NCBI RefSeq assembly: GCF_003367395.1
Contig: NZ_CP031417.1
Span: 1,984,001 to 2,048,000 of the forward strand
DNA from: Pseudolabrys taiwanensis
GTDB lineage: Bacteria > Pseudomonadota > Alphaproteobacteria > Rhizobiales > Xanthobacteraceae
Length of the DNA stretch: 64,000 bases
Reading direction: 5' to 3'
This document shows positions 21,177-41,299 of the stretch, in pieces (position 1 is the first letter of the stretch; each line of letters opens with the position of its first letter). The notes under the pieces were generated by a model, which saw only the letters and a list, made by a program, of their open reading frames with translations, was not told where the DNA came from and did no database searches. A program made the translations under genes and the position numbers.

Positions 21177-22295
21177 TCAGCGCTTTCGGCTAAGGCCCAG
21201 ACGCGCCAGCAGCGACGCCCAAAGCAAGCCCATGACGCCGAGCTCGGCCGGCTTGCGCTCGCTGCCGCCGATCGCCGCGGCGAGGTTCTGCGCGAAGGCC
21301 GCGGTCAAACGCCCGACCAGATCGCGCACCAATGCGCCGCGCGAGAACTGCGCCAGCATGCCGACGATGCGATAGCGCATGCGGATGTCGATGGCGCAGC
21401 GGCCATCGGCCTCCGGCACCAGCGTGTAGATCACCTCGCCGCTCGCCTGCGAGCCGGAGCCGCTATCGCGCCCCGCCCCACGCAGCACGCCGGACCGCGC
21501 CGCCTCGTCGAACGTCACGGTGCCTTCGCCACCGAAGCTCGCCTTGATCGGCCCGAACTTCACCACCATGCGGCCCGTAATGTTGCGACCATCGAACGAG
21601 GTAACCTCCGCGCCCGGCAGACAGCGCGCGACGCGCGGGATGTCGTGCAGGAACTGCCACGTCGTGCCGGCATCGGCGGCGACCACCACGCGGTCCGTCA
21701 GTTCGGTCCAGCCGTCGGTCGCGGCGACGATCGGCGCAGCGGTCGCTTTCGGTGCCGCCGCTGTCGTCGCGGCAGTCACCGCCGCGCTTGTCCCTTGCGT
21801 GGTCGCCGCCACCGCCGCGGCAGCCTGCGGCGCGCGTCCCGCCGAAGCCGCCTTCACGGCGGCGACGATGCCCATGTAACCGGTGCAGCGGCAGAGATTG
21901 CCGCTGAGCTCCTCGCGGATCTTAGCCTCCTCGCATTCGCCCTTGCGAAGGATGAGATCGCGCGACGTGATCAACATGCCCGGCGTACAGAAGCCGCATT
22001 GCAGACCGTGATGCGCCGAGAATTCCTCGCGCAGCTTCGACGCCACTTCGTCGCGATCGAGGCCCTCGATGGTGACGATTGAAGCGCCATCGCAGGCTAC
22101 GGCCGGCATGATGCAGGAGCGCATCGGCTTGCCGTCGACGATCACCGTGCAGGCGCCGCACACGCCCTGCTCGCAACCGATATGCGTGCCGGTGAGGCCG
22201 AGCTCGCCGCGCAGGAAGTCGGCGAGGTGCAGGCGCGGCGCGACCTGCGCCGTCACCGGATTGCTGTTGACGGTCAGAGCGATTGCTTTGTTCAC
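21177..22295 (-). CDS. Fusion of [2Fe-2S] small subunit (CoxS type) and CoxG/SRPBCC domain
   Basis: Protein of 372 residues. Residues 1-155 are a xanthine dehydrogenase-family iron-sulfur subunit: the plant-type cluster [10 protein letters not shown] and the second cluster CGFCTPGM...CRCTGY are complete. An Ala/Thr-rich linker follows (about 155-200). Residues 200-372 are a CoxG-like SRPBCC domain ending in a hydrophobic helix ([14 protein letters not shown]). CoxG is normally a separate membrane-anchoring protein, so here the electron-transfer subunit may tether itself to the membrane. GTG start at 22295, overlapping the FAD-subunit stop. Confidence 0.9.
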
Positions 22296-29605: not shown

Positions 29606-29682
29606 CATCTTCCCCTGCTCGACGAGACGATTGGCATTCACCGGCACGCACACGGTAACACGACAATTTTGAATTCGACAAG

Positions 29683-29706
29683 ATATGATGTGGTACTGAC
29701 GATTTT
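29683..29706. promoter_or_regulatory. Candidate operator between NMT1-type receptor and MarR gene
   Basis: The sequence ATATGATGTGGT-ACTGACGA shares the GATG(G)TA...ACTGA pattern with elements at 31981-32000 and 32061-32080, and the ACTGA(T/C)GA part with those at 14504 and 26872. It is 78 bases upstream of the receptor start and about 200 upstream of marR. Regulator binding is inferred. Confidence 0.4.
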
Positions 29707-29908
29707 GCTTTCGCCGTTCGCTGCGCTATCAAGTCGCCAGCGGCCGCCGCTCAGCGCGCCGGATCACGCCTTCGCCGCGCACCTGCCATGTCCACATCCT
29801 TCGGGAAACTCGCCCTCAAATGGTTGCAAAGGACGTGCCAGGATCGTCCAATTGCTCCGACTCAACCCTCGCGCGTCGGCGTTCGGCCGAACGTCTATAG
29901 GAATGCCC

Positions 29909-30481
29909 ATGGCAACAAGCCCAAAACGCCGTACTAAGTCGGCTCCGGCCGGCGCACCGGCAAAGCTCGTCGCGCGCGCCGGCCAGCCGCGCGATTATTC
30001 CGTTGCGGGCGCACTCATGTCGGAAATGCCGCTGTGGGCGCGACCGGGCTATCTGCTGCGCCGCCTGCACCAGATCCATTACGCGCTGTTCTTCGAGGAA
30101 TGCACGCCGTTCGACATCACGCCGGTGCAATACGGGCTTTTGACCACGCTCGCGACCAATCCCGACCTCGATCAGAACTCGATCGCGCGCGAACTCGGCA
30201 TCGACCGCACCAATGCCGCCGATGTGCTCAACCGGCTCAGCCGCCGCGGCTTGATCGAACGCCGGCGCGGCAAGGTGGACAAGCGCACGATGCTGGCGCG
30301 CCTGACGCCGGAAGGAAAGCGCGTCACCAAGGAAATGTACGCCGCGATGCAGCGCGCGCAGGAACGGCTGCTCGAGCCGCTGCTGCCGGCCGAGCGCCAC
30401 GCTTTCATCACCACCTTGATCCGCCTGATCGACGGCAACAACCATCTCGGCCGCACCATCTTCAGCCCGAGCAAGGCATAG
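29909..30481 (+). CDS. MarR family transcriptional regulator
   Basis: Dimeric winged-helix regulator of 190 residues. A basic N-terminal tail is followed by PLWARPGYLLRRLHQIHYALFFEE, the recognition region QNSIARELGIDRTNAADVLNRLSRRGLIERR, and the wing KVDKRTMLARLTPEG. The family usually responds to aromatic acids. ATG at 29909 is selected over 29903 because AGGA sits six bases ahead. It is divergent from the NMT1 importer and near the Rieske dioxygenase genes, so it is the best local candidate to bind the shared element. Confidence 0.9.
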   Translation: MATSPKRRTKSAPAGAPAKLVARAGQPRDYSVAGALMSEMPLWARPGYLLRRLHQIHYALFFEECTPFDITPVQYGLLTTLATNPDLDQNSIARELGIDRTNAADVLNRLSRRGLIERRRGKVDKRTMLARLTPEGKRVTKEMYAAMQRAQERLLEPLLPAERHAFITTLIRLIDGNNHLGRTIFSPSKA

Positions 30482-30928: not shown

Positions 30929-31573
30929 CTAAAACGCGTCCGGCTGCGTGCTCGGCTGCGTGTCGGTGAAGGCCGGCAGCTTCATGCAGTCCTCGAAGAT
31001 CGCCATCAGCTTGGGATAGCCGTCGAGCGGACAGCCGAAACGCTGCGCGTTGAAGATCTGCGGCACCAGGCACGTATCGGCCATGGTCACGCTGTCGCCG
31101 AGCGCAAAGCGCCCCGACCGCCCCTCTTGCGCGACATATTGCTCCAGGCCGCCGAGCCCCTCGGCGATCCAGTGCGCGTACCATTCGTTGGTCGCCGCCT
31201 CGTCGGCGCCGAACTGGCTCTTGAGCCGCTTGAGCACCCGCACGTTGTTGAGCGGATGAATGTCGCAGCTGATGACTTGCGAGAACGCGCGCACATAAGC
31301 GCGATCCAGCGGATCTTTCGGCATCAGCGGCGGCTCGGGATAGATCTCGTCGAGATACTCGATGACCGCCATCGTCTGGATATGACTGCGGCCGCCCTCG
31401 ATCAGCAGCGGCACCAGGCCTTGCGGATTGAGGTCGCGATAGCCCGGCTCCCGATGTTCCATCTTCGGCAGGCTGACGTAATGCGCCTCGTAGGGGAGCT
31501 TCTTGTACGCCAGCACGATCCGCATCCGGTACGACGTCGACGACCGGAAGAACGTATAAAGATGCCGCTCCAC
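30929..31573 (-). CDS. Zeta-class glutathione S-transferase, maleylacetoacetate/maleylpyruvate isomerase type
   Basis: Soluble enzyme of 214 residues. The N-terminal thioredoxin-like domain has the zeta-class SSxSxR active-site motif (FFRSSTSYRMRIVLAY), with NPQGLVPLL and the glutathione-binding IQTMAVIEYLDE. The C-terminal helical domain includes GDSVTMADTCLVPQIFNAQRF. Such enzymes isomerise maleylacetoacetate or maleylpyruvate with glutathione, in homogentisate or gentisate breakdown. GTG start at 31573. Its pairing with a dioxygenase favours the gentisate route, but no ring-cleavage dioxygenase is in the window. Confidence 0.9.
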   Translation of the reverse strand: MERHLYTFFRSSTSYRMRIVLAYKKLPYEAHYVSLPKMEHREPGYRDLNPQGLVPLLIEGGRSHIQTMAVIEYLDEIYPEPPLMPKDPLDRAYVRAFSQVISCDIHPLNNVRVLKRLKSQFGADEAATNEWYAHWIAEGLGGLEQYVAQEGRSGRFALGDSVTMADTCLVPQIFNAQRFGCPLDGYPKLMAIFEDCMKLPAFTDTQPSTQPDAF

Positions 31574-31580
31574 GGCCGGC

Positions 31581-31949
31581 TTACCCCGCCGCCTTCTGCA
31601 GGATCTCGTCGGGCGTCGAGGAGACGACCTGGACGTATTTCGGGATGAACTTGCCGCCCTCGATATATTTGATGAATTCCGGCTTGAGCTCGTTGGCGAG
31701 GATCTTGCGGATCTTCGCGTGCTCTTCGATGTCCGACCATTCGGCGATCAGGAAGAAGCGCTGCGGATCCTCGACGTCGCGGCAGAGCACGCCGTCGCTC
31801 ACCTGCGCCGCCGATTTGTGCATCGGGTTGCCGTCGGAATAGTCGAACTCCTCGAACAGCCGGATGAACTCATCCTCGTGGCCCTTCTGCACGCGGAAGT
31901 CATAGATGTGCAGGTAGTTGCCTTTGGTCGCGAGCGGCTCTTGGGCCAT
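31581..31949 (-). CDS. Small protein with dimeric alpha/beta barrel (ABM-like) fold
   Basis: Protein of 122 residues without signal or membrane segment. The pattern YLHIYDFRVQKGHEDEFIRLFEEF and later RFFLIAEWSDIEEHAKIR resembles antibiotic-biosynthesis-monooxygenase-like domains. These act as small monooxygenases or as structural partners, so its reaction is unknown. ATG at 31949 is 8 bases after GGAGGAG, a near-perfect ribosome-binding site. It precedes the isomerase gene by 7 bases in one operon and is divergent from the dioxygenase. Confidence 0.7.
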   Translation of the reverse strand: MAQEPLATKGNYLHIYDFRVQKGHEDEFIRLFEEFDYSDGNPMHKSAAQVSDGVLCRDVEDPQRFFLIAEWSDIEEHAKIRKILANELKPEFIKYIEGGKFIPKYVQVVSSTPDEILQKAAG

Positions 31950-32100
31950 GACGGCGCTCCTCCGATTGCGGTGTCCTATTTTATGATGGTACACTGACTA
32001 AATCGCAGGGGCAATAAATTCCTTGTGGTCGAGCGGCGGCGGCACCGTTGCCGCCCGGAAACAACGATGTACACTGATCAATAAGCGCGGAAACGAACCC
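31950..32100. promoter_or_regulatory. Divergent promoter with two copies of a shared element
   Basis: TTATGATGGTAC-ACTGA at 31981-31997 and ACAACGATGTAC-ACTGA at 32061-32077 share TAC-ACTGA and are spaced exactly 80 bases apart. They flank the divergent starts of the ABM/isomerase operon and the Rieske operon. TACACT could also act as a weak -10 for the rightward gene. The similarity to elements at 14504, 26872 and 29695 suggests one regulator. Confidence 0.5.
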
Positions 32101-34962
32101 ATGGCCTGGCAGCGTGCGGCATCGTTGAGTTCGATAAAGGACGGCGCCGTCATCGGCGTCGATGTCGGCGGAACGCCGGTTGCGCTCTTCAATCTCGGCG
32201 GCACGGTCTTCGCCACGCACAACGTCTGCACGCACGCGCTGGCGCTGCTGTCCGAAGGCTGGATCGAGGACGGCAAGATCGAGTGCCCGCTGCACCAGGG
32301 CCAGTTCGACATCCGCACCGGCAAGGCGCTGTGCGCGCCGTTGACGGAAGACCTGCGCACTTATGCGGCAAAGGTCGACGGCGACGACATCCTCGTCGAC
32401 CTCGACCAGCCCGGCGCCCGGCCGCCGGTTTCGGCCGCCGAGAAGAAAACCGCGGCGCCAGCCGCTGCGACCACCGCCGTCATTGTCGGCGCCGGTCAGA
32501 CCGCCGCCGCCGCGATCCGCGCCATGCGCGCGGCCGGCTTCAATGGCGCGATCGATCTCGTCGGCGATGAAGTGCACCTGCCCTATGAACGCCCGCCGCT
32601 GTCGAAGGACATGCTGTTCGGCACCGGCGACCTCGCCGCCTGCACGCGGCTGAGCGAGGCCGATGCCGAGGCGCTCGGCGTGCGCCTGCATCTCGGTCAG
32701 CAGGTTGTCGCCATCGACGCCGCGCAGAAGCAAGTCGAACTCGGCAGCGGCACGCGCCTGCCCTACGATGCGCTGTTGATCGCGACCGGCGGCCGCGCCC
32801 GCCGTCTCGGCGTTCCCGGCGCCGATCGCGCCGGTGTCTTGCATCTGCGCACCGTCGAAGACGCCGACGCCATCGAACGCGCGCTCGCCTCGGCGTCCCA
32901 CGTCGCGGTCGTCGGTGGTGGCTTCATCGGCCTCGAACTCGCCTCCGCGGCGATCAAGCGCGGCGTCGCCGTCACCGTGCTCGAACGCGAGCCCGAGATC
33001 ATGTCGCGGCTGTTGCCGGCGCCGCTCGGCCGCGCCTTCCGGCGTCTGGCCGAGTCTCACGGCGTCGAGGTCCGCCGCAATGCCGAGGTGCGCGAGATCA
33101 CGCAGCGCGGCGGGAAGCTTGGCGTCGTCACCGAGCGCGACACGCTCGAAGTCGACGCGGTGCTGGTCGGCATCGGGCTCGAGCCGCATGTCGAACTGGC
33201 CGCCTCCGCCGGCCTGAAGGTCGCGGGCGGCATCGACGTCGATGCCGAAGGCCGCACCAGCGTTGCCGGCATCTGGGCCGCCGGCGATTGCGCGTTGCAT
33301 CACATTCCTAACGGCGGCCGCCGCGTGCGGCTTGAAAGCTGGCACAATGCCGAGGAACAAGGCGCCGCCGCGGGCCGTTCCATCGCCGGCGCGGCACCCG
33401 GCAGCGCCGCCAAGAAGCCGTGGTTCTGGACCGATCAGTTCGGCCTCAACATCCAGATGATCGGCAGCATCGGCGCCAGGGACATCGTCGCGCGCGAAGG
33501 CGACATCGAGGCCGCCGCCGGCGCCGTCTATCGCACGCTCGACCGCGACACCGGCAAGCTCACCGGTGTCGTCGCTTTCTCCGCGCCTGACGCCATTCGT
33601 CAGGCGCGCACCGACTTGCAAGCCGCAACGCCTTTCGATCTCGACGCATCCACCGCCGTCGTCCTCGCGGATGACGAAGCAGACGAAACATCCCCGGAGG
33701 CCGCCATGACCGCACATCCTTCGCTGGCATTGACCAAACGCTATCTGTGGCCGGAGGAAGGCCTCACGCGCATCCCGGACTGGGTCTACACCGACCAGAC
33801 CATCTACGAGCGCGAGGTCGAGAAGATCTTCCACGGCCGCACCTGGAATTTCGTCGCACTCGAATGCGAGGTGCCCAATCCGGGCGACTTCATCCGGTCC
33901 AATGTCGGCCCGACACCGGTCGTCGTCGCGCGCGACAAGGATGGCGCGATCAACGTGTTCGAGAACCGCTGCGCGCACCGCGCCGCCGAGTTCTGCCGCG
34001 ATCTGTCCGGCAACGCCAAGGAGTTCGTCTGCCCCTATCACCAATGGTCGTACGACCTGAAGGGCAATCTCGCCGGCGTGCCGTTCCGCCGCGGCGTCAA
34101 CGGCAAGGGCGGCATGCCGGCCGATTTCAAGAACGCCGACCATGGGCTGCGCAAGCTGAACGTCACGACGCATCGCGGCGTCGTATTCGCCTCCTACTGC
34201 AACGACATGGAGTCGTTCCCGGACTATCTCGGGCCCGAAGTGCTGCGCGAGTTCGAAGCGACCTTCGACGGCCGCAAGCCGGTGCTGCTCGGTTACTACC
34301 GTCACACGCTGCCGGGCAACTGGAAGCTCTATCACGAGAACCTCAAGGACCCGTATCACGCGACCTTGCTGCACACCTTCCTGGTGACGTTCGGCCTGCT
34401 CGTCGCCGGCAACCGCTCGCTGATGCTGGCCGATCCGACCGGCCGTCATGGTGTGATGGCCTCGGCCAAGTCCGACGGCAAGGCGGTCTCCGGCGACGCC
34501 AAGAAGGAGATGCGCGCTTATCGCGAAGGCATGACGCTGGAAGAGCCGCGCTTCATGGACTTCATCGACGAGTTCGACAGCCCGTGGTCGGTGACCATGG
34601 CGACCATCTGGCCGAACCTGATCATCCAGCGCGAGATGAACACGCTCGGCGTGCGCCACATCGTGCCGACCGGCCCCAACGAGTTCATCATGAAGTGGAC
34701 CATGTTCGGCTTCGAGGGCGACACCGAGGAGATGACGCGCCACCGCCTGCGCCAGGGCAACCTGATGGGGCCGGCCGGCTTCCTCGGCCTCGAAGACAAT
34801 GAGGCGATCAAGTTCGTGCAGGACGGCATGCTCAACGTGCCGAACGGCGAGCATCTGGTGAAGCTCGATCCGGACATCGAGACCGGCACCGCCGACAGCC
34901 TGATCTCGGAGGCGGCGATCCGCGCGATGTACAAGCACTGGCGCCAGGAAATGGGGCTCTGA
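32101..34962 (+). CDS. Fused Rieske ferredoxin - FAD reductase - Rieske oxygenase alpha subunit
   Basis: One frame of 953 residues encodes a whole ring-hydroxylating electron chain. Residues 1-110 are a Rieske ferredoxin (NVCTHA and CPLHQG ligands). About 120-500 form a ferredoxin reductase with two Rossmann motifs (VIVGAGQTAAAA, VAVVGGGFIGLELA) and the FAD site AAGDCA. Residues 536-953 are an oxygenase alpha subunit of the anthranilate/salicylate dioxygenase group, with CAHRAAEFC...CPYHQ and the iron site ENLKDPYHATLLH. The parts meet in an acidic linker. ATG at 33706 (5 bases after GGAGG) could make the alpha subunit alone as a 418-residue product. Substrate is inferred: anthranilate or salicylate-like. 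Confidence 0.9.
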   Translation: MAWQRAASLSSIKDGAVIGVDVGGTPVALFNLGGTVFATHNVCTHALALLSEGWIEDGKIECPLHQGQFDIRTGKALCAPLTEDLRTYAAKVDGDDILVDLDQPGARPPVSAAEKKTAAPAAATTAVIVGAGQTAAAAIRAMRAAGFNGAIDLVGDEVHLPYERPPLSKDMLFGTGDLAACTRLSEADAEALGVRLHLGQQVVAIDAAQKQVELGSGTRLPYDALLIATGGRARRLGVPGADRAGVLHLRTVEDADAIERALASASHVAVVGGGFIGLELASAAIKRGVAVTVLEREPEIMSRLLPAPLGRAFRRLAESHGVEVRRNAEVREITQRGGKLGVVTERDTLEVDAVLVGIGLEPHVELAASAGLKVAGGIDVDAEGRTSVAGIWAAGDCALHHIPNGGRRVRLESWHNAEEQGAAAGRSIAGAAPGSAAKKPWFWTDQFGLNIQMIGSIGARDIVAREGDIEAAAGAVYRTLDRDTGKLTGVVAFSAPDAIRQARTDLQAATPFDLDASTAVVLADDEADETSPEAAMTAHPSLALTKRYLWPEEGLTRIPDWVYTDQTIYEREVEKIFHGRTWNFVALECEVPNPGDFIRSNVGPTPVVVARDKDGAINVFENRCAHRAAEFCRDLSGNAKEFVCPYHQWSYDLKGNLAGVPFRRGVNGKGGMPADFKNADHGLRKLNVTTHRGVVFASYCNDMESFPDYLGPEVLREFEATFDGRKPVLLGYYRHTLPGNWKLYHENLKDPYHATLLHTFLVTFGLLVAGNRSLMLADPTGRHGVMASAKSDGKAVSGDAKKEMRAYREGMTLEEPRFMDFIDEFDSPWSVTMATIWPNLIIQREMNTLGVRHIVPTGPNEFIMKWTMFGFEGDTEEMTRHRLRQGNLMGPAGFLGLEDNEAIKFVQDGMLNVPNGEHLVKLDPDIETGTADSLISEAAIRAMYKHWRQEMGL

Positions 34963-34964
34963 TC

Positions 34965-35498
34965 ATGCAAGGCCTGATGACCCGCCCGCCGCTCGCCATG
35001 GCCGACCGCGATGCCCGCCTCGACGCGCTGCTGCTGGCGCACGAGGTGACGACCTTCAACAACGTCTATGCCGCCGCGCTCGACGAGCAGCGGCTGATGG
35101 ACTGGGCCGAGCTGTTCACCGACGACGCGCTGTACATCATCCTGTCGCGCGAGAACCACGACCGCAATCTGCCGGTCGGTCTCATCTACTGCGAGAACAA
35201 GGGCATGATCCGCGACCGCGCCTTCGCCCTGAAGGAGACCGCGATGTTCGCGCCGCGCTATCTGCGGCACATGATCGCCAACCAGTCGGTCGGCGAGGAA
35301 GCCGCCGACGGCACCGTCACCGCGCGCGCCAACTATGTGGTGCTGCAGGTGCTGTACGACCGGCCCGACGCCAAGATCCATCAGGTCGGCACCTATTACG
35401 ACACGTTCAGGCGCGTGAACGGCGCGCTCAAGCTCGCCGCGCGCCGCTGCGTCTACGACAATTTGCTCGTCGACAACGCGCTGTGCCTGCCGGTGTGA
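34965..35498 (+). CDS. Ring-hydroxylating dioxygenase beta subunit
   Basis: Small oxygenase subunit of 177 residues with the NTF2-like/SnoaL fold typical of the family (EVTTFNNVYAAALDEQRLMDWAELFTDDALY near the start). It stabilises the alpha hexamer. ATG at 34965, two bases after the alpha stop, so translation is coupled. Together with the fused gene it provides a complete ferredoxin-reductase-oxygenase set in two genes. Confidence 0.92.
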   Translation: MQGLMTRPPLAMADRDARLDALLLAHEVTTFNNVYAAALDEQRLMDWAELFTDDALYIILSRENHDRNLPVGLIYCENKGMIRDRAFALKETAMFAPRYLRHMIANQSVGEEAADGTVTARANYVVLQVLYDRPDAKIHQVGTYYDTFRRVNGALKLAARRCVYDNLLVDNALCLPV

Positions 35499-35547: not shown

Positions 35548-36984
35548 ATGACCGCAGCGGCCTCGCCGTTTGCCTATATGACCGCCGTTGAGATGGCGCA
35601 GCGCATCCGCGCGCGCGAGATCTCGTCGCTCGCGGTCACCACCGAGATCCTCCGCCGCGCCGAGCAAAGCCAGCCAACGCTCAACGCCTTCATCACGCTC
35701 TGCAAGGACGAGGCGCTCGCCGCCGCGAAAGCCGCCGACGCCGCGGTCGCGCGCGGCGACACATTGGGCCCGCTGCACGGCGTGCCGGTGTCGGTGAAGG
35801 ACATCATCAACACCGCCGGCATCCGCACCACCTGGGCCTCGCGCACGATGCAAAACAACGTGCCCGACATGGACGCGGCCGCGGTGAAGCGCCTCAAGGA
35901 CGCCGGCGCCGTCATCATCGGCAAGACCATGACGTCGGAGTTCGCGCACAAGCTGATGACCGACGCGCCGGCCTTCGGCGTAACGCGCAACCCGTGGGGC
36001 CTCGCTTACACGCCGGGCGGCTCGAGCGGCGGCTCGGCCGTCGCGGTCGCCGCGGGGCTCGGGCCCTTGTCGCTCGCGACCGACGCCGGCGCCTCGACGC
36101 GCCTGCCCGCCGCCTGCACCGGCATCGTCGGCCTGAAACCCACGCTCGGCGTCATCCCGCACAACCAGGTGCCGGACGGCTTCAACAACTTCATCCATCT
36201 CGGCGTCATGGCGCGCACTGTGCGCGACGCAGCGCTCATGCTCGACGTCGTCGCCGGCCCGCATCCGGCCGATCCGCATTCGCTCGGCCTTAACCACATC
36301 CGCGCAACGGCCAGCCTCGACACACCCATCAAAGGCCTGCGCATTGCGTTTCGCCCGCTGATCGGCAACACGCTCCTCGACGACGAGGTGCGCGCCGCGT
36401 GCGAAGCGAGCCTTGCCGCCTTCCGCGCGCTCGGCGCCACGGTCGACGTCATCGACGAGGCGATCGACAACGCCGAGCCCGCCTGGCGCATCCTGCAGCA
36501 ATCGAACTGGGCGGCGCGCTTCTTCGCGCGCATCGACGAGGTCGCGCCGCAACTCGACCCCTCCTTCGTCGACGGCATCCGCGCCGGCGGCGCCTACAGC
36601 GGCCAGCAGCTGCTGCAGGCGACCTACAAGCGCACGGCGCACTTCCGCATGGTGCAGGGCTGGTTCGCCACATACGACCTGATCCTGACGCCGACCATGA
36701 GCCGGCCGCCGCTCTCGGCCGACCACAAGGCGCTCGACCCGATCGCCATCAACGGCCAGGACGCCGGCGACATGCGCGCCTCGTGGGTGCCGTATCTCAA
36801 CATGTTCGACCTCACCGGCCATCCGGCCGTCAGCGTGCCATGCGGCGTCTCGCGCGACGGCCTGCCGCTCGGCCTGCAGATCGTCGGCCCGTGGTACGCC
36901 GACGCCAAGGTGCTCGCCGCCGCTCTTGCGTTCGAAACGGCGCAGCCCTGGGCGCAGCGCATCCCGCCGCACGCGGTGGCGTAA
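35548..36984 (+). CDS. Amidase signature family hydrolase
   Basis: Amidohydrolase of 478 residues. Lys is in GVPVSVKDIINTAG, cis-Ser in TPGGSSGGSAVAVAAG and nucleophile Ser in TDAGASTRLPAACTG, where the family's GGS is GAS; catalytic Ser is kept. ATG at 35548 follows CGGAG. It lies 49 bases after the dioxygenase beta gene, so it probably joins that operon and may release an aromatic acid from its amide before ring hydroxylation. It is distinct from the amidase at 7075-8469. Confidence 0.9.
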   Translation: MTAAASPFAYMTAVEMAQRIRAREISSLAVTTEILRRAEQSQPTLNAFITLCKDEALAAAKAADAAVARGDTLGPLHGVPVSVKDIINTAGIRTTWASRTMQNNVPDMDAAAVKRLKDAGAVIIGKTMTSEFAHKLMTDAPAFGVTRNPWGLAYTPGGSSGGSAVAVAAGLGPLSLATDAGASTRLPAACTGIVGLKPTLGVIPHNQVPDGFNNFIHLGVMARTVRDAALMLDVVAGPHPADPHSLGLNHIRATASLDTPIKGLRIAFRPLIGNTLLDDEVRAACEASLAAFRALGATVDVIDEAIDNAEPAWRILQQSNWAARFFARIDEVAPQLDPSFVDGIRAGGAYSGQQLLQATYKRTAHFRMVQGWFATYDLILTPTMSRPPLSADHKALDPIAINGQDAGDMRASWVPYLNMFDLTGHPAVSVPCGVSRDGLPLGLQIVGPWYADAKVLAAALAFETAQPWAQRIPPHAVA

Positions 36985-38710: not shown

Positions 38711-38911
38711 GAGGCCCATGCAGATGTCAACTTGGCAGAGCTAAAGCAAGAGCCTCAGCAAGCCCATAGGTCATTTCCTGAGAGATGCAATTCAAAGCTT
38801 CTGCGAAGCTTATAAATGCACTGATAACGCGGACATCGATCTGGATTTCTTGCGCTCCCCGTTCGAAAATGGAACTGGCGGTTGCGCCGTGTACCGGGGT
38901 CGGAGTCGACA

Positions 38912-39865
38912 ATGCCTAGCGTCTTCTTTTCTTACTCGCACGCTGACGAGGCGTTACGAGATCAACTAGAAAAACAACTCTCCCTTCTTAAGCGCCAAGG
39001 AGTCATTGAAGTCTGGCATGATCGCAGGATCGGCGCCGGACAAGACTTTGGCAAGGAAATCGATCATCACATCGAAACCGATGATATCATTCTGCTACTT
39101 ATCAGCGCCGATTTTCTCGACTCCAACTATTGCTACGAGAAGGAAATGGCTCGCGCGATGGCACGACACGAGGCTGGCGAGGCCGTCGTCATTCCCGTGA
39201 TCTTGCGAGCCTGTGATTGGCACGGAGCACCATTCGGAAAGCTAAATGCGACGCCACCCGACGGCCGCCCGATAACGCAATTTCCAGACCGCGACCAAGC
39301 CCTATTGGAAGTTGCCAAGGCTGTGCGCGCAGTTGCCGAACGACTAGCACCCCGCGGGACGATCACGAGAGACAAAGCGCCAGGATCAGTTGGGGCTCCG
39401 GCTCCGAAGATCGATAGCGCTCCCCGCTCCAGCAATCTACGCGTCGCAAAACAGTTTAGCGAGCGCGACCGAGATGCCTTCAAAATTGATTGTTTCGAGT
39501 TTATGGCGAAGTTCTTCGAGAATTCACTGACCGAGTTGTCGCAGCGCAATCCAGGAATCGAGGGCAGCTTTCGTCGGATCGACGCAAACCGCTTTTCTGC
39601 GAAGATATACAAGAACGGAAAGTCCGTTGCGCAGTGCACAGTTTTTTTAGGTGACCAGTTCGCCTCGGGCATAGCCTATTCTTCGTCGGAAATGGGCAAC
39701 GGATATAACGAACTACTTAGCGTCGATTCTGACGATCAAGCTATGTACCTCCGCCCGCTCGGCATGACGATAGCCCGCGCAGGCGGCGACCGCGCCAAGC
39801 TCTCTCAGGAAGGCGCGTCCGAAGCGTATTGGTCGATGCTAATCGAACGAATACAGGGGGGATAA
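38912..39865 (+). CDS. TIR-domain protein with conserved unknown C-terminal domain
   Basis: Protein of 317 residues. Residues 1-135 are a bacterial TIR domain: VFFSYSHADEALRDQLEKQL at the N-terminus and SADFLDSNYCYEKEMARAM, whose Glu (76 or 78) is the candidate NAD-hydrolysis residue. A linker leads to a C-terminal domain (about 185-317, FKIDCFEFMAKFFENSLTEL...) of unknown role. ATG at 38912 begins MPSVFFSYSH. TIR enzymes of this kind commonly deplete NAD in anti-phage defence. The following gene begins 4 bases after the stop. G+C is low compared with flanks, consistent with transfer. Confidence 0.85.
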   Translation: MPSVFFSYSHADEALRDQLEKQLSLLKRQGVIEVWHDRRIGAGQDFGKEIDHHIETDDIILLLISADFLDSNYCYEKEMARAMARHEAGEAVVIPVILRACDWHGAPFGKLNATPPDGRPITQFPDRDQALLEVAKAVRAVAERLAPRGTITRDKAPGSVGAPAPKIDSAPRSSNLRVAKQFSERDRDAFKIDCFEFMAKFFENSLTELSQRNPGIEGSFRRIDANRFSAKIYKNGKSVAQCTVFLGDQFASGIAYSSSEMGNGYNELLSVDSDDQAMYLRPLGMTIARAGGDRAKLSQEGASEAYWSMLIERIQGG

Positions 39866-40396: not shown

Positions 40397-41299
40397 ATGG
40401 GTTACGGGGTTTTAATTCACCGGTCAGATTCGATCTACAACGACAGTCCCGCTGAGCGTTATCAATTTCCCAGTCAATATCTCGGCCGTGTTCAAGCCTG
40501 CGTCGGCGATTGGATCATATATTATGAGCCTCGCAAGGTGGCCGATACGCGGGGCTACTTTGCCATTGCGAAAGTCCAGCAGGTCATTCCCGATCCGGCA
40601 ACGGCCGGTATGTACCTCGCACTCATCGAACCCGGCAGCTGCCTCGACTTCGCGACCCCCGTCCCATTCACCGACGCATCTGGCGTGGTGAATGAGCGAG
40701 GTGTTCTAAACGAAGAAGGAAGGATTTCCGGCCGCGCGCAATCAGCCGTCCGGCCAATCTCACCAAGCGATTTTAATCGTATCATCGCCTTGGGCCTGAA
40801 CGACAGCGAGCCTATGCTCCCGCGCGTCGGCGAAGCACCTCCGATGCTCGATCTCCAGGAAGAACAAAGGCCGTTCGAGTTCGAGCAGAGCCGCGATCGC
40901 ACGAGTTTTACTGTGTCACGAATCGTGCGCGATCGGATATTTCGCCGGACCGTATTGCGGGCCTACCCAGAACGTTGCGCCGTCAGCGGCCTCAAACTCA
41001 TAAACGGCCGAGGCCGGGCGGAGGTCGCGGCAGCGCATATCCGCCCCGTTGAAGCCCACGGTCCCGATATCGTCAGCAACGGAATTGCACTTTCAGGCAC
41101 CGTGCATTGGATGTTCGACCGAGGGCTGATTAGCCTCGCTGACGATCTGCAAATTCTCGTTTCGCGGCAGGCTAACGATCCCGATAGCATTCGAGCTCTT
41201 ATCAACAAGAGCGGTTACGCGTTTGCCCCTCAGCGGACGTCTGAACGTCCGCATCCCCATTTCTTGCAATGGCATCGGGAACATTGCTTTAAGCAGTGA
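40397..41299 (+). CDS. HNH endonuclease with N-terminal PUA/EVE-like domain
   Basis: Protein of 300 residues. The N-terminal half (VLIHRSDSIYNDSPAERYQFP, GDWIIYYEP, GYFAIAKVQQVIPDP) resembles small-molecule or modified-base binding domains of the PUA/EVE type linked to nucleases. The C-terminal half carries HNH_2: CAVSG, AAHIRP with the catalytic His, and NGIALSGTVHWMFDRGLI with Asn and His. The layout recalls modification-dependent restriction enzymes. ATG at 40397, 65 bases after the hypothetical partner gene on the same strand. Whether it acts with the TIR pair is unknown. Confidence 0.85.
   Translation: MGYGVLIHRSDSIYNDSPAERYQFPSQYLGRVQACVGDWIIYYEPRKVADTRGYFAIAKVQQVIPDPATAGMYLALIEPGSCLDFATPVPFTDASGVVNERGVLNEEGRISGRAQSAVRPISPSDFNRIIALGLNDSEPMLPRVGEAPPMLDLQEEQRPFEFEQSRDRTSFTVSRIVRDRIFRRTVLRAYPERCAVSGLKLINGRGRAEVAAAHIRPVEAHGPDIVSNGIALSGTVHWMFDRGLISLADDLQILVSRQANDPDSIRALINKSGYAFAPQRTSERPHPHFLQWHREHCFKQ

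Follow-up and report, generated by a model that had tools for sequence, protein, structure and literature searches.

Three-component Rieske oxygenases of the alpha-beta type usually consist of separate polypeptides: a Rieske-type ferredoxin, an FAD/NAD(P)H reductase of the glutathione reductase type, an alpha subunit carrying a Rieske centre and a 2-His-1-Asp iron, and a beta subunit. In these systems electrons pass from NAD(P)H to FAD, from there to the Rieske ferredoxin and the Rieske centre of alpha, and finally to the iron in an adjacent alpha subunit of an alpha3-beta3 hexamer, the reductase being required in small amounts. The use of Rieske oxygenases as biocatalysts is limited by their supply of electrons, and artificial fusion of the parts is being attempted by engineers. 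The components of salicylate 5-hydroxylase are separate, while in AIF3-like proteins a Rieske domain and a pyridine nucleotide reductase form a single chain. According to a 2025 perspective (PMC12445004), a self-sufficient Rieske oxygenase system had yet to be identified. Literature searches for natural Rieske fusions, made by titles and abstract openings and with the subscription literature largely outside their scope, found no report either. Internal in-frame starts that yield a C-terminal subunit are already known, for example for Cas11 (PMC11899642).

The window analysed here (64,000 nucleotides of Pseudolabrys taiwanensis contig NZ_CP031417.1) contains all four parts listed above. However, ferredoxin, reductase and alpha subunit are not separate polypeptides, as in salicylate 5-hydroxylase and the class in general, but lie in a single stop-free frame. 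The original prediction had described one uninterrupted 953-codon frame for these three components with the beta subunit next to it, and translation and Pfam analysis bore this out (Table 1). The gene is a fused variant of a three-component Rieske oxygenase and not a typical member of the class. Pfam models matched the protein at Rieske (two stretches, the best at residues 3-88), Pyr_redox_2 (PF07992; 126-421), Reductase_C (PF14759; 441-515) and Ring_hydroxyl_A (734-951), and the PDB matches of the reductase part included the biphenyl dioxygenase reductase, TodA and putidaredoxin reductase. The iron-sulfur and FAD motifs had been read as complete in all three parts, and they are: the ligands of the N-terminal Rieske ferredoxin (C43/H45/C62/H65, in the arrangement C-x-H...C-x2-H), those of the alpha Rieske centre (C624/H626/C644/H647) and residues D750/H753/H758/D899 all occur in the window protein, and none of them varies among 64 aligned fusions. 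From the roles of such residues in other, known Rieske oxygenases, D750 is taken to be the bridging Asp, and H753, H758 and D899 the ligands of the mononuclear iron. The sizes expected for the fusion and for a product starting at an inner ATG, about 100 and 47 kDa, were computed as 102.8 and 47.4 kDa, the shorter chain having 418 residues.

An AlphaFold model of the fusion built from 64 sequences (mean pLDDT 72.3, pTM 0.50) was confident for the reductase and mostly so for the ferredoxin, but poor across much of alpha; it therefore gives no information on the geometry of the reductase-ferredoxin arm. Confidence was low at residues 109-121 and 526-562, as expected of linkers.

Table 1. Position of the fused gene, its parts and its neighbours in the window.
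Feature	Position	Strand	Basis
MarR-type regulator, true start uncertain, recurrent neighbour	29669..30481	+	Pfam, neighbourhood comparison
Maleylacetoacetate isomerase type GST, recurrent neighbour	30929..31573	-	TIGR01262, 251.6 bits (cut-off 171.05)
Small ABM-like protein, divergent neighbour	31581..31994	-	Neighbourhood comparison
Ferredoxin-reductase-alpha fusion gene (953 aa, 102.8 kDa)	32101..34962	+	Open frame, Pfam
Rieske-type [2Fe-2S] ferredoxin domain, residues 1-105	32101..32415	+	Pfam; ligands C43 H45 C62 H65
FAD/NAD(P)H ferredoxin reductase domain with Reductase_C, residues 121-515	32461..33645	+	Pfam, NCBIfam, PDB matches
Linker, variable and probably disordered, residues 516-549; contains the putative internal ribosome-binding site	33646..33747	+	Alignment; pLDDT <50 at 526-562
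Internal Shine-Dalgarno GGAGG, 5 bases 5′ of the inner ATG	33696..33700	+	Sequence, pairing score
Alpha (large oxygenase) part from the inner ATG at 33706 (418 aa, 47.4 kDa); proposed free second product	33706..34962	+	Sequence, conservation
Alpha Rieske cluster ligands C624 H626 C644 H647	33970..34041	+	Alignment
D750 H753 H758; D899	34348..34374; 34795-34797	+	Alignment
Beta (small oxygenase) subunit, beginning 2 bases past the alpha stop	34965..35498	+	Pfam, NCBIfam
Amidase, recurrent neighbour	35548..36984	+	Pfam, neighbourhood comparison

A protein search limited to proteins of similar length (7998 candidates scored; E <= 1e-20) found 536 homologues. The 120 of them that were listed were 862-972 aa long, with Pfam domains that included Rieske, Pyr_redox_2, Reductase_C and Ring_hydroxyl_A; one (P0002, 99%) represents the window's own protein. 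Database names among these 120 were often one-sided, such as FAD-dependent oxidoreductase, apoptosis-inducing factor 3 or anthranilate 1,2-dioxygenase large subunit. For one 94% identical fusion (P0005) the source is given as Microbacteriaceae bacterium K1510; this name is actinobacterial and apparently misplaced. The P. taiwanensis genome itself also holds an AIF3-like Rieske-reductase relative (C1:1415262-1416773), the match to which crosses one TAA.

At the DNA level, 44 loci gave 39 distinct fused coding sequences, a set whose selection itself required an open frame through the junction, and these fell into 16 lineages below 80% identity. With one more sequence found later (L157), 40 distinct coding sequences from Alpha- and Gammaproteobacteria were available, so that the genome search for the same fusion suggested in the original prediction was successful, and the first case that it had named as refuting it, a stop or indel overlooked near the junction, is ruled out by these 39 + 1 open sequences, as is a sequencing error. 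Counting only matches that span the whole query, fusions were present in 5 of 199 genomes of relatives; for the family the count was 16 of 391, for genus g25 18 of 265, for the class 6 of 385 and for the phylum 3 of 398. These sets overlap, differ in their E-value limits and, except for that of g25, include the window's own genome. Ten of 80 named loci had the single-frame fusion, from Bradyrhizobium (three), Pseudolabrys, Oceanibaculum, Xanthobacter, Rhodospirillaceae, Alcanivorax, Alloalcanivorax and Pacificispira.

In many Betaproteobacteria, and in some other bacteria, ferredoxin, reductase and alpha are encoded in the same order as separate frames, mostly with beta next; this arrangement is likely to be the precursor form. 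In two such loci (L061 and L066) the reductase gene overlaps the start of alpha out of frame, which could possibly represent an intermediate on the way to fusion. A tree of alpha sequences was built from 79 rows (84 minus five with long branches), with a single long-branched outgroup row as its root. The 38 rows of full fusions all fell within one clade of 49 rows (support 88/80), for which an earlier quick tree of the 84 rows had given a support of 99. The separate-gene rows formed a clade of 26 (94/94), whose pairing with the fusion clade was weak (78/26). Relatives with separate genes and no fused product, which the original prediction had counted as refuting it if they carried a stop codon at the junction, do exist, yet they sit outside the fusion clade. 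The fusion clade also contained five fusions of ferredoxin and alpha without reductase (one, L129, cut by the end of its contig) and six other rows. Five of these six had neither partner in frame; the sixth (L059, Mangrovicoccus) has a frame with the reductase end and alpha only, and is broken or truncated. A clade made of full fusions alone was ruled out (AU test, p = 4.4e-5), hence the view of one fusion clade with later losses; one fusion event followed by losses is the simplest reading, although not a proven one. The tree of the reductase domain, which omits three fragmentary or duplicate separate rows, agrees with that of alpha: the 16 fused representatives formed one clade (97) beside 18 separate sequences (84) and apart from 12 others.

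An inner ATG at position 33706, preceded by a GGAGG with a 5-base spacer, had been singled out as a possible second start, and both elements are in place. The strength of such sites was scored as the pairing of the 14 bases upstream of each in-frame ATG, GTG or TTG of the linker with the tail of the 16S rRNA. The best linker site reached -6 kcal/mol or better in 38 of the 39 fused genes, and -7 or better in 34. For the other in-frame ATGs of the same genes (n = 822) the respective values were 9.4% and 4.6%, a comparison biased toward the linkers, for which the best of one to six ATG/GTG/TTG codons was scored. The sequence found later (L157) had an inner site at -9.5 and a linker nearly that of the Alcanivorax sequences. 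In one gene (L145) the best-scoring start was a neighbouring TTG rather than the GTG, and one full fusion (L153, from genome G1004) lacked an inner ribosome site, with a best score of -1.6. When each gene was compared with synonymous versions of itself, only 4 of the 39 exceeded the null at the 0.05 level, most of the site being already dictated by the encoded Glu-x-x-Met. For the 16 genes below 80% identity taken together, however, z was -4.62 and 0 of 2000 shuffles were as extreme; 15 of these 16 lineage representatives had a site at -6 or better. That the inner start is conserved beyond the requirements of the protein sequence is supported when the genes are pooled in this way.

Several further features bear on this site. 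Across the 16 lineages the linkers share 15% identity and the alpha parts 80%. The site occupies all three codon registers (CCG GAG GCC GCC ATG, CGG AGA GGA ACG ATG and AAG GGA GAT ATC ATG), and is thus encoded by different residues (PEAAM, RRGTM and KGDIM). Among 121 proteins, the window's included, residue 536 was Met in 97, Val in 22 and another residue in two, while most of the surrounding linker columns were far more variable; Met is exchanged for Val, not for Leu or Ile, and the Val codon was GTG in all nine fused genes for which DNA was examined. A Glu was present no more than five residues ahead of position 536 in 108 of the 121. In the six codons preceding the inner start Glu was encoded by GAG 49 times and by GAA 7 times, against 1539 and 997 times in the whole genes (Fisher p = 1.2e-5, for rows that are not independent). 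The inner site was stronger than that of the first start in 28 of 39 genes and in 11 of the 16 representatives (the first start being the stronger in the other five). The RNA near the inner start was less folded than its synonymous versions in 11 of 15 representatives (mean z +0.74, L153 omitted), with the opposite in four. The identity contrast between linker and alpha, the changing registers, the Met/Val exchange, the GAG excess, the strength of the site and the RNA folding together point to selection on the nucleotides at the inner start.

The ferredoxin-reductase junction of the same fused genes served as a control: a site at -6 or better was present in 6 of 39, and an ATG was the best start in 3 of 39. 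This control is imperfect, since the reductase site was probably weak already before the fusion. In 21 separate-gene loci (not deduplicated), the alpha start scored -6 or better in 19 and the reductase start in 8, the reductase start not being found in two of the 21. The old operon thus already favoured alpha over reductase, and the difference between the two starts therefore fits a model of internal initiation. If the internal start doses the reductase, decay would be expected in the ferredoxin-alpha fusions that lack it. The alpha parts of these five (L129, L130, L131, L132 and L134, the last on the reverse strand) are 82-88% identical to the window's. Their best inner site scored -2.5 to -5.0 in four, and -7.1 in the fifth, where the GGAGG is only 2 bases away from the ATG. 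A score of -6 was thus reached in one of five, a contrast that comprises five loci from two lineages. In six loci with alpha only (two of them identical), the matching start was at -6 or better in five.

The inner Shine-Dalgarno sequence and ATG might be an unused relic of the separate alpha gene, in which case only the fusion would be made and alpha3-beta3 hexamers would carry three reductase arms. In the separate-gene relatives alpha does begin here, at a genuine start preceded by a Shine-Dalgarno-like sequence, L153 manages without such a site, and 35 of the 39 genes taken singly fail to exceed the synonymous null. Against this, the site was retained in 15 of 16 lineages while the linkers were randomised to 15% identity; it also shifts between registers, stands out from the pooled null, and is weak in four of the five ferredoxin-alpha fusions that have no reductase. 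An idle remnant is accordingly regarded as unlikely. The same mostly non-significant single-gene tests (4 of 39 exceeding the null), together with the Glu found within five residues of position 536 in 108 of 121 proteins, would also be compatible with a Glu-x-x-Met kept for a protein reason, such as a hinge or docking motif, with the Shine-Dalgarno as a by-product. The site, however, is made by differing residues in differing registers, Met gives way to Val (GTG in nine of nine) but not to Leu or Ile, GAG is in excess and the pooled null is exceeded, all of which make a protein motif very improbable.

A third way to obtain separate reductase and alpha, acting as in ordinary systems, would be cleavage of the long chain after translation. 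The linker is highly variable and predicted to be disordered (526-562), and could as such be open to proteases, but inspection of the 121 linkers by eye revealed no conserved cleavage-like motif, and cleavage would leave the conserved ribosome site unexplained; it is hardly to be expected. The reading preferred here is that the locus encodes a three-component Rieske oxygenase in one chain from which free alpha is also made by internal initiation, leaving the reductase substoichiometric, and this is probably correct. The ferredoxin, reductase and alpha genes would have merged into one frame with the ribosome-binding site and start of alpha retained inside. Within the chain, electrons would pass from NAD(P)H to FAD (residues 121-515) and reach the mononuclear iron by way of first the Rieske ferredoxin at the N terminus and then alpha's own Rieske centre. 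Ribosomes initiating at 33706 would provide extra alpha, which would assemble with beta into alpha3-beta3 enzymes that bear a reductase-ferredoxin arm on part of their alpha chains only; internal initiation could in this manner match the supply of beta without placing three arms on each hexamer. Free alpha production, mixed assembly, the electron path and the reaction are all inferred from sequence. Extended to the relatives, the data give a slight preference to a natural family of self-sufficient Rieske oxygenases, able to turn over on NAD(P)H without extra redox partners, in which a conserved internal start sets the ratio of arms to catalytic subunits, hexamers mix fused and free alpha, and the start has mostly decayed where the reductase is missing, as in the nested ferredoxin-alpha fusions.

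The neighbourhood of the fusion includes, besides the genes in Table 1, an ABC system, a TRAP binding protein and a molybdenum hydroxylase. Homologues of several neighbours recur beside fused and separate forms alike; among 78 loci longer than 7 kb, the molybdenum enzyme was present in 25 and the MarR gene in 26 (matches covering more than 50% of the query). In the window, a CoxG domain is fused to the iron-sulfur subunit of this molybdenum enzyme (21177-22295, minus strand), as it is in L050 and L043. A TIR protein matching the Thoeris ThsB model (38882-39865, plus strand; PDLC00420, E 5e-132) and an HNH protein (40397-41299, plus strand) also lie near the catabolic cluster.

NCBIfam models for anthranilate 1,2-dioxygenase and related enzymes matched below their cut-offs (score/cut-off: AndAc 399.5/750, AndAb 113.4/150, AndAa 279.8/650, HcaD 332.9/450, AndAd 139.6/230), so that none of the four AndA equivalog names applies. 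The closest solved alpha by sequence was the large component of salicylate 5-hydroxylase, an enzyme that converts salicylate to gentisate (PDB 7c8z; in the alpha part, residues 14-417 were matched with 427 bits and the ligands aligned). The reaction is likely to be the hydroxylation of an aromatic or N-heteroaromatic acid. A gentisate-type pathway is suggested, but not proven, by the maleylacetoacetate isomerase, the alpha resembling that of salicylate 5-hydroxylase and an FAA hydrolase in L043. In view of the MarR gene, auxin (iad) dioxygenase was considered as a label for the fusion and dropped, as IadC differs by its description: it is an FMN reductase of another type (PMC10374108). The picolinate pic cluster, also considered, has picC-picF genes with a dehydrogenase and a four-part 6-hydroxypicolinate monooxygenase (PMC10142695). 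Compared with it by description, the window has a molybdenum cofactor enzyme and a MarR gene nearby, and no picC-F were recognised in the subset of ORFs scanned; a text search of the literature for a link between 6-hydroxypicolinate monooxygenase and Rieske proteins found nothing.

The combination of a Rieske fusion with an internal in-frame start is unreported as far as the searches reach. Natural fusions of this kind form a family that one-sided database names have concealed; it would make a native domain order and native linkers available, and would offer a candidate rule for the relative dosage of catalytic subunits in fused and free form. The natural variants lacking the reductase, both partners or the inner start would allow direct tests of the benefits of fusion and dosing, L153 being a natural test case for the purpose of free alpha.

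Among described systems, anthranilate 1,2-dioxygenase (AndAa-AndAb-AndAc-AndAd) has the same four parts by NCBIfam, namely an AndAb-like ferredoxin, an HcaD/AndAa-like reductase, an AndAc-like alpha and an AndAd-like beta, but differs from the window enzyme, which has three of them in one chain and all its scores under the cut-offs. The alpha of salicylate 5-hydroxylase (7c8z) is, among solved structures, the nearest to the window's by sequence. The AIF3-like Rieske-reductase fusions, whose name JGI gives to some of the listed homologues, have no oxygenase part, unlike the window fusion. The production of Cas11 by internal in-frame translation of cas8/cas10 resembles the proposed arrangement: there, one frame yields a full-length protein and a C-terminal subunit at higher dose, with a possible Shine-Dalgarno 5′ of the inner start (PMC11899642). 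Cas11, however, belongs to a CRISPR complex of unrelated proteins, and its product was shown experimentally. Self-sufficient P450s such as CYP116B46 hold redox partners and oxygenase in one chain (PMC7260179), and the window enzyme would work like them if the preferred reading is right; their oxygenase is not homologous, and the system described here adds to this plan a second subunit and a putative internal start.
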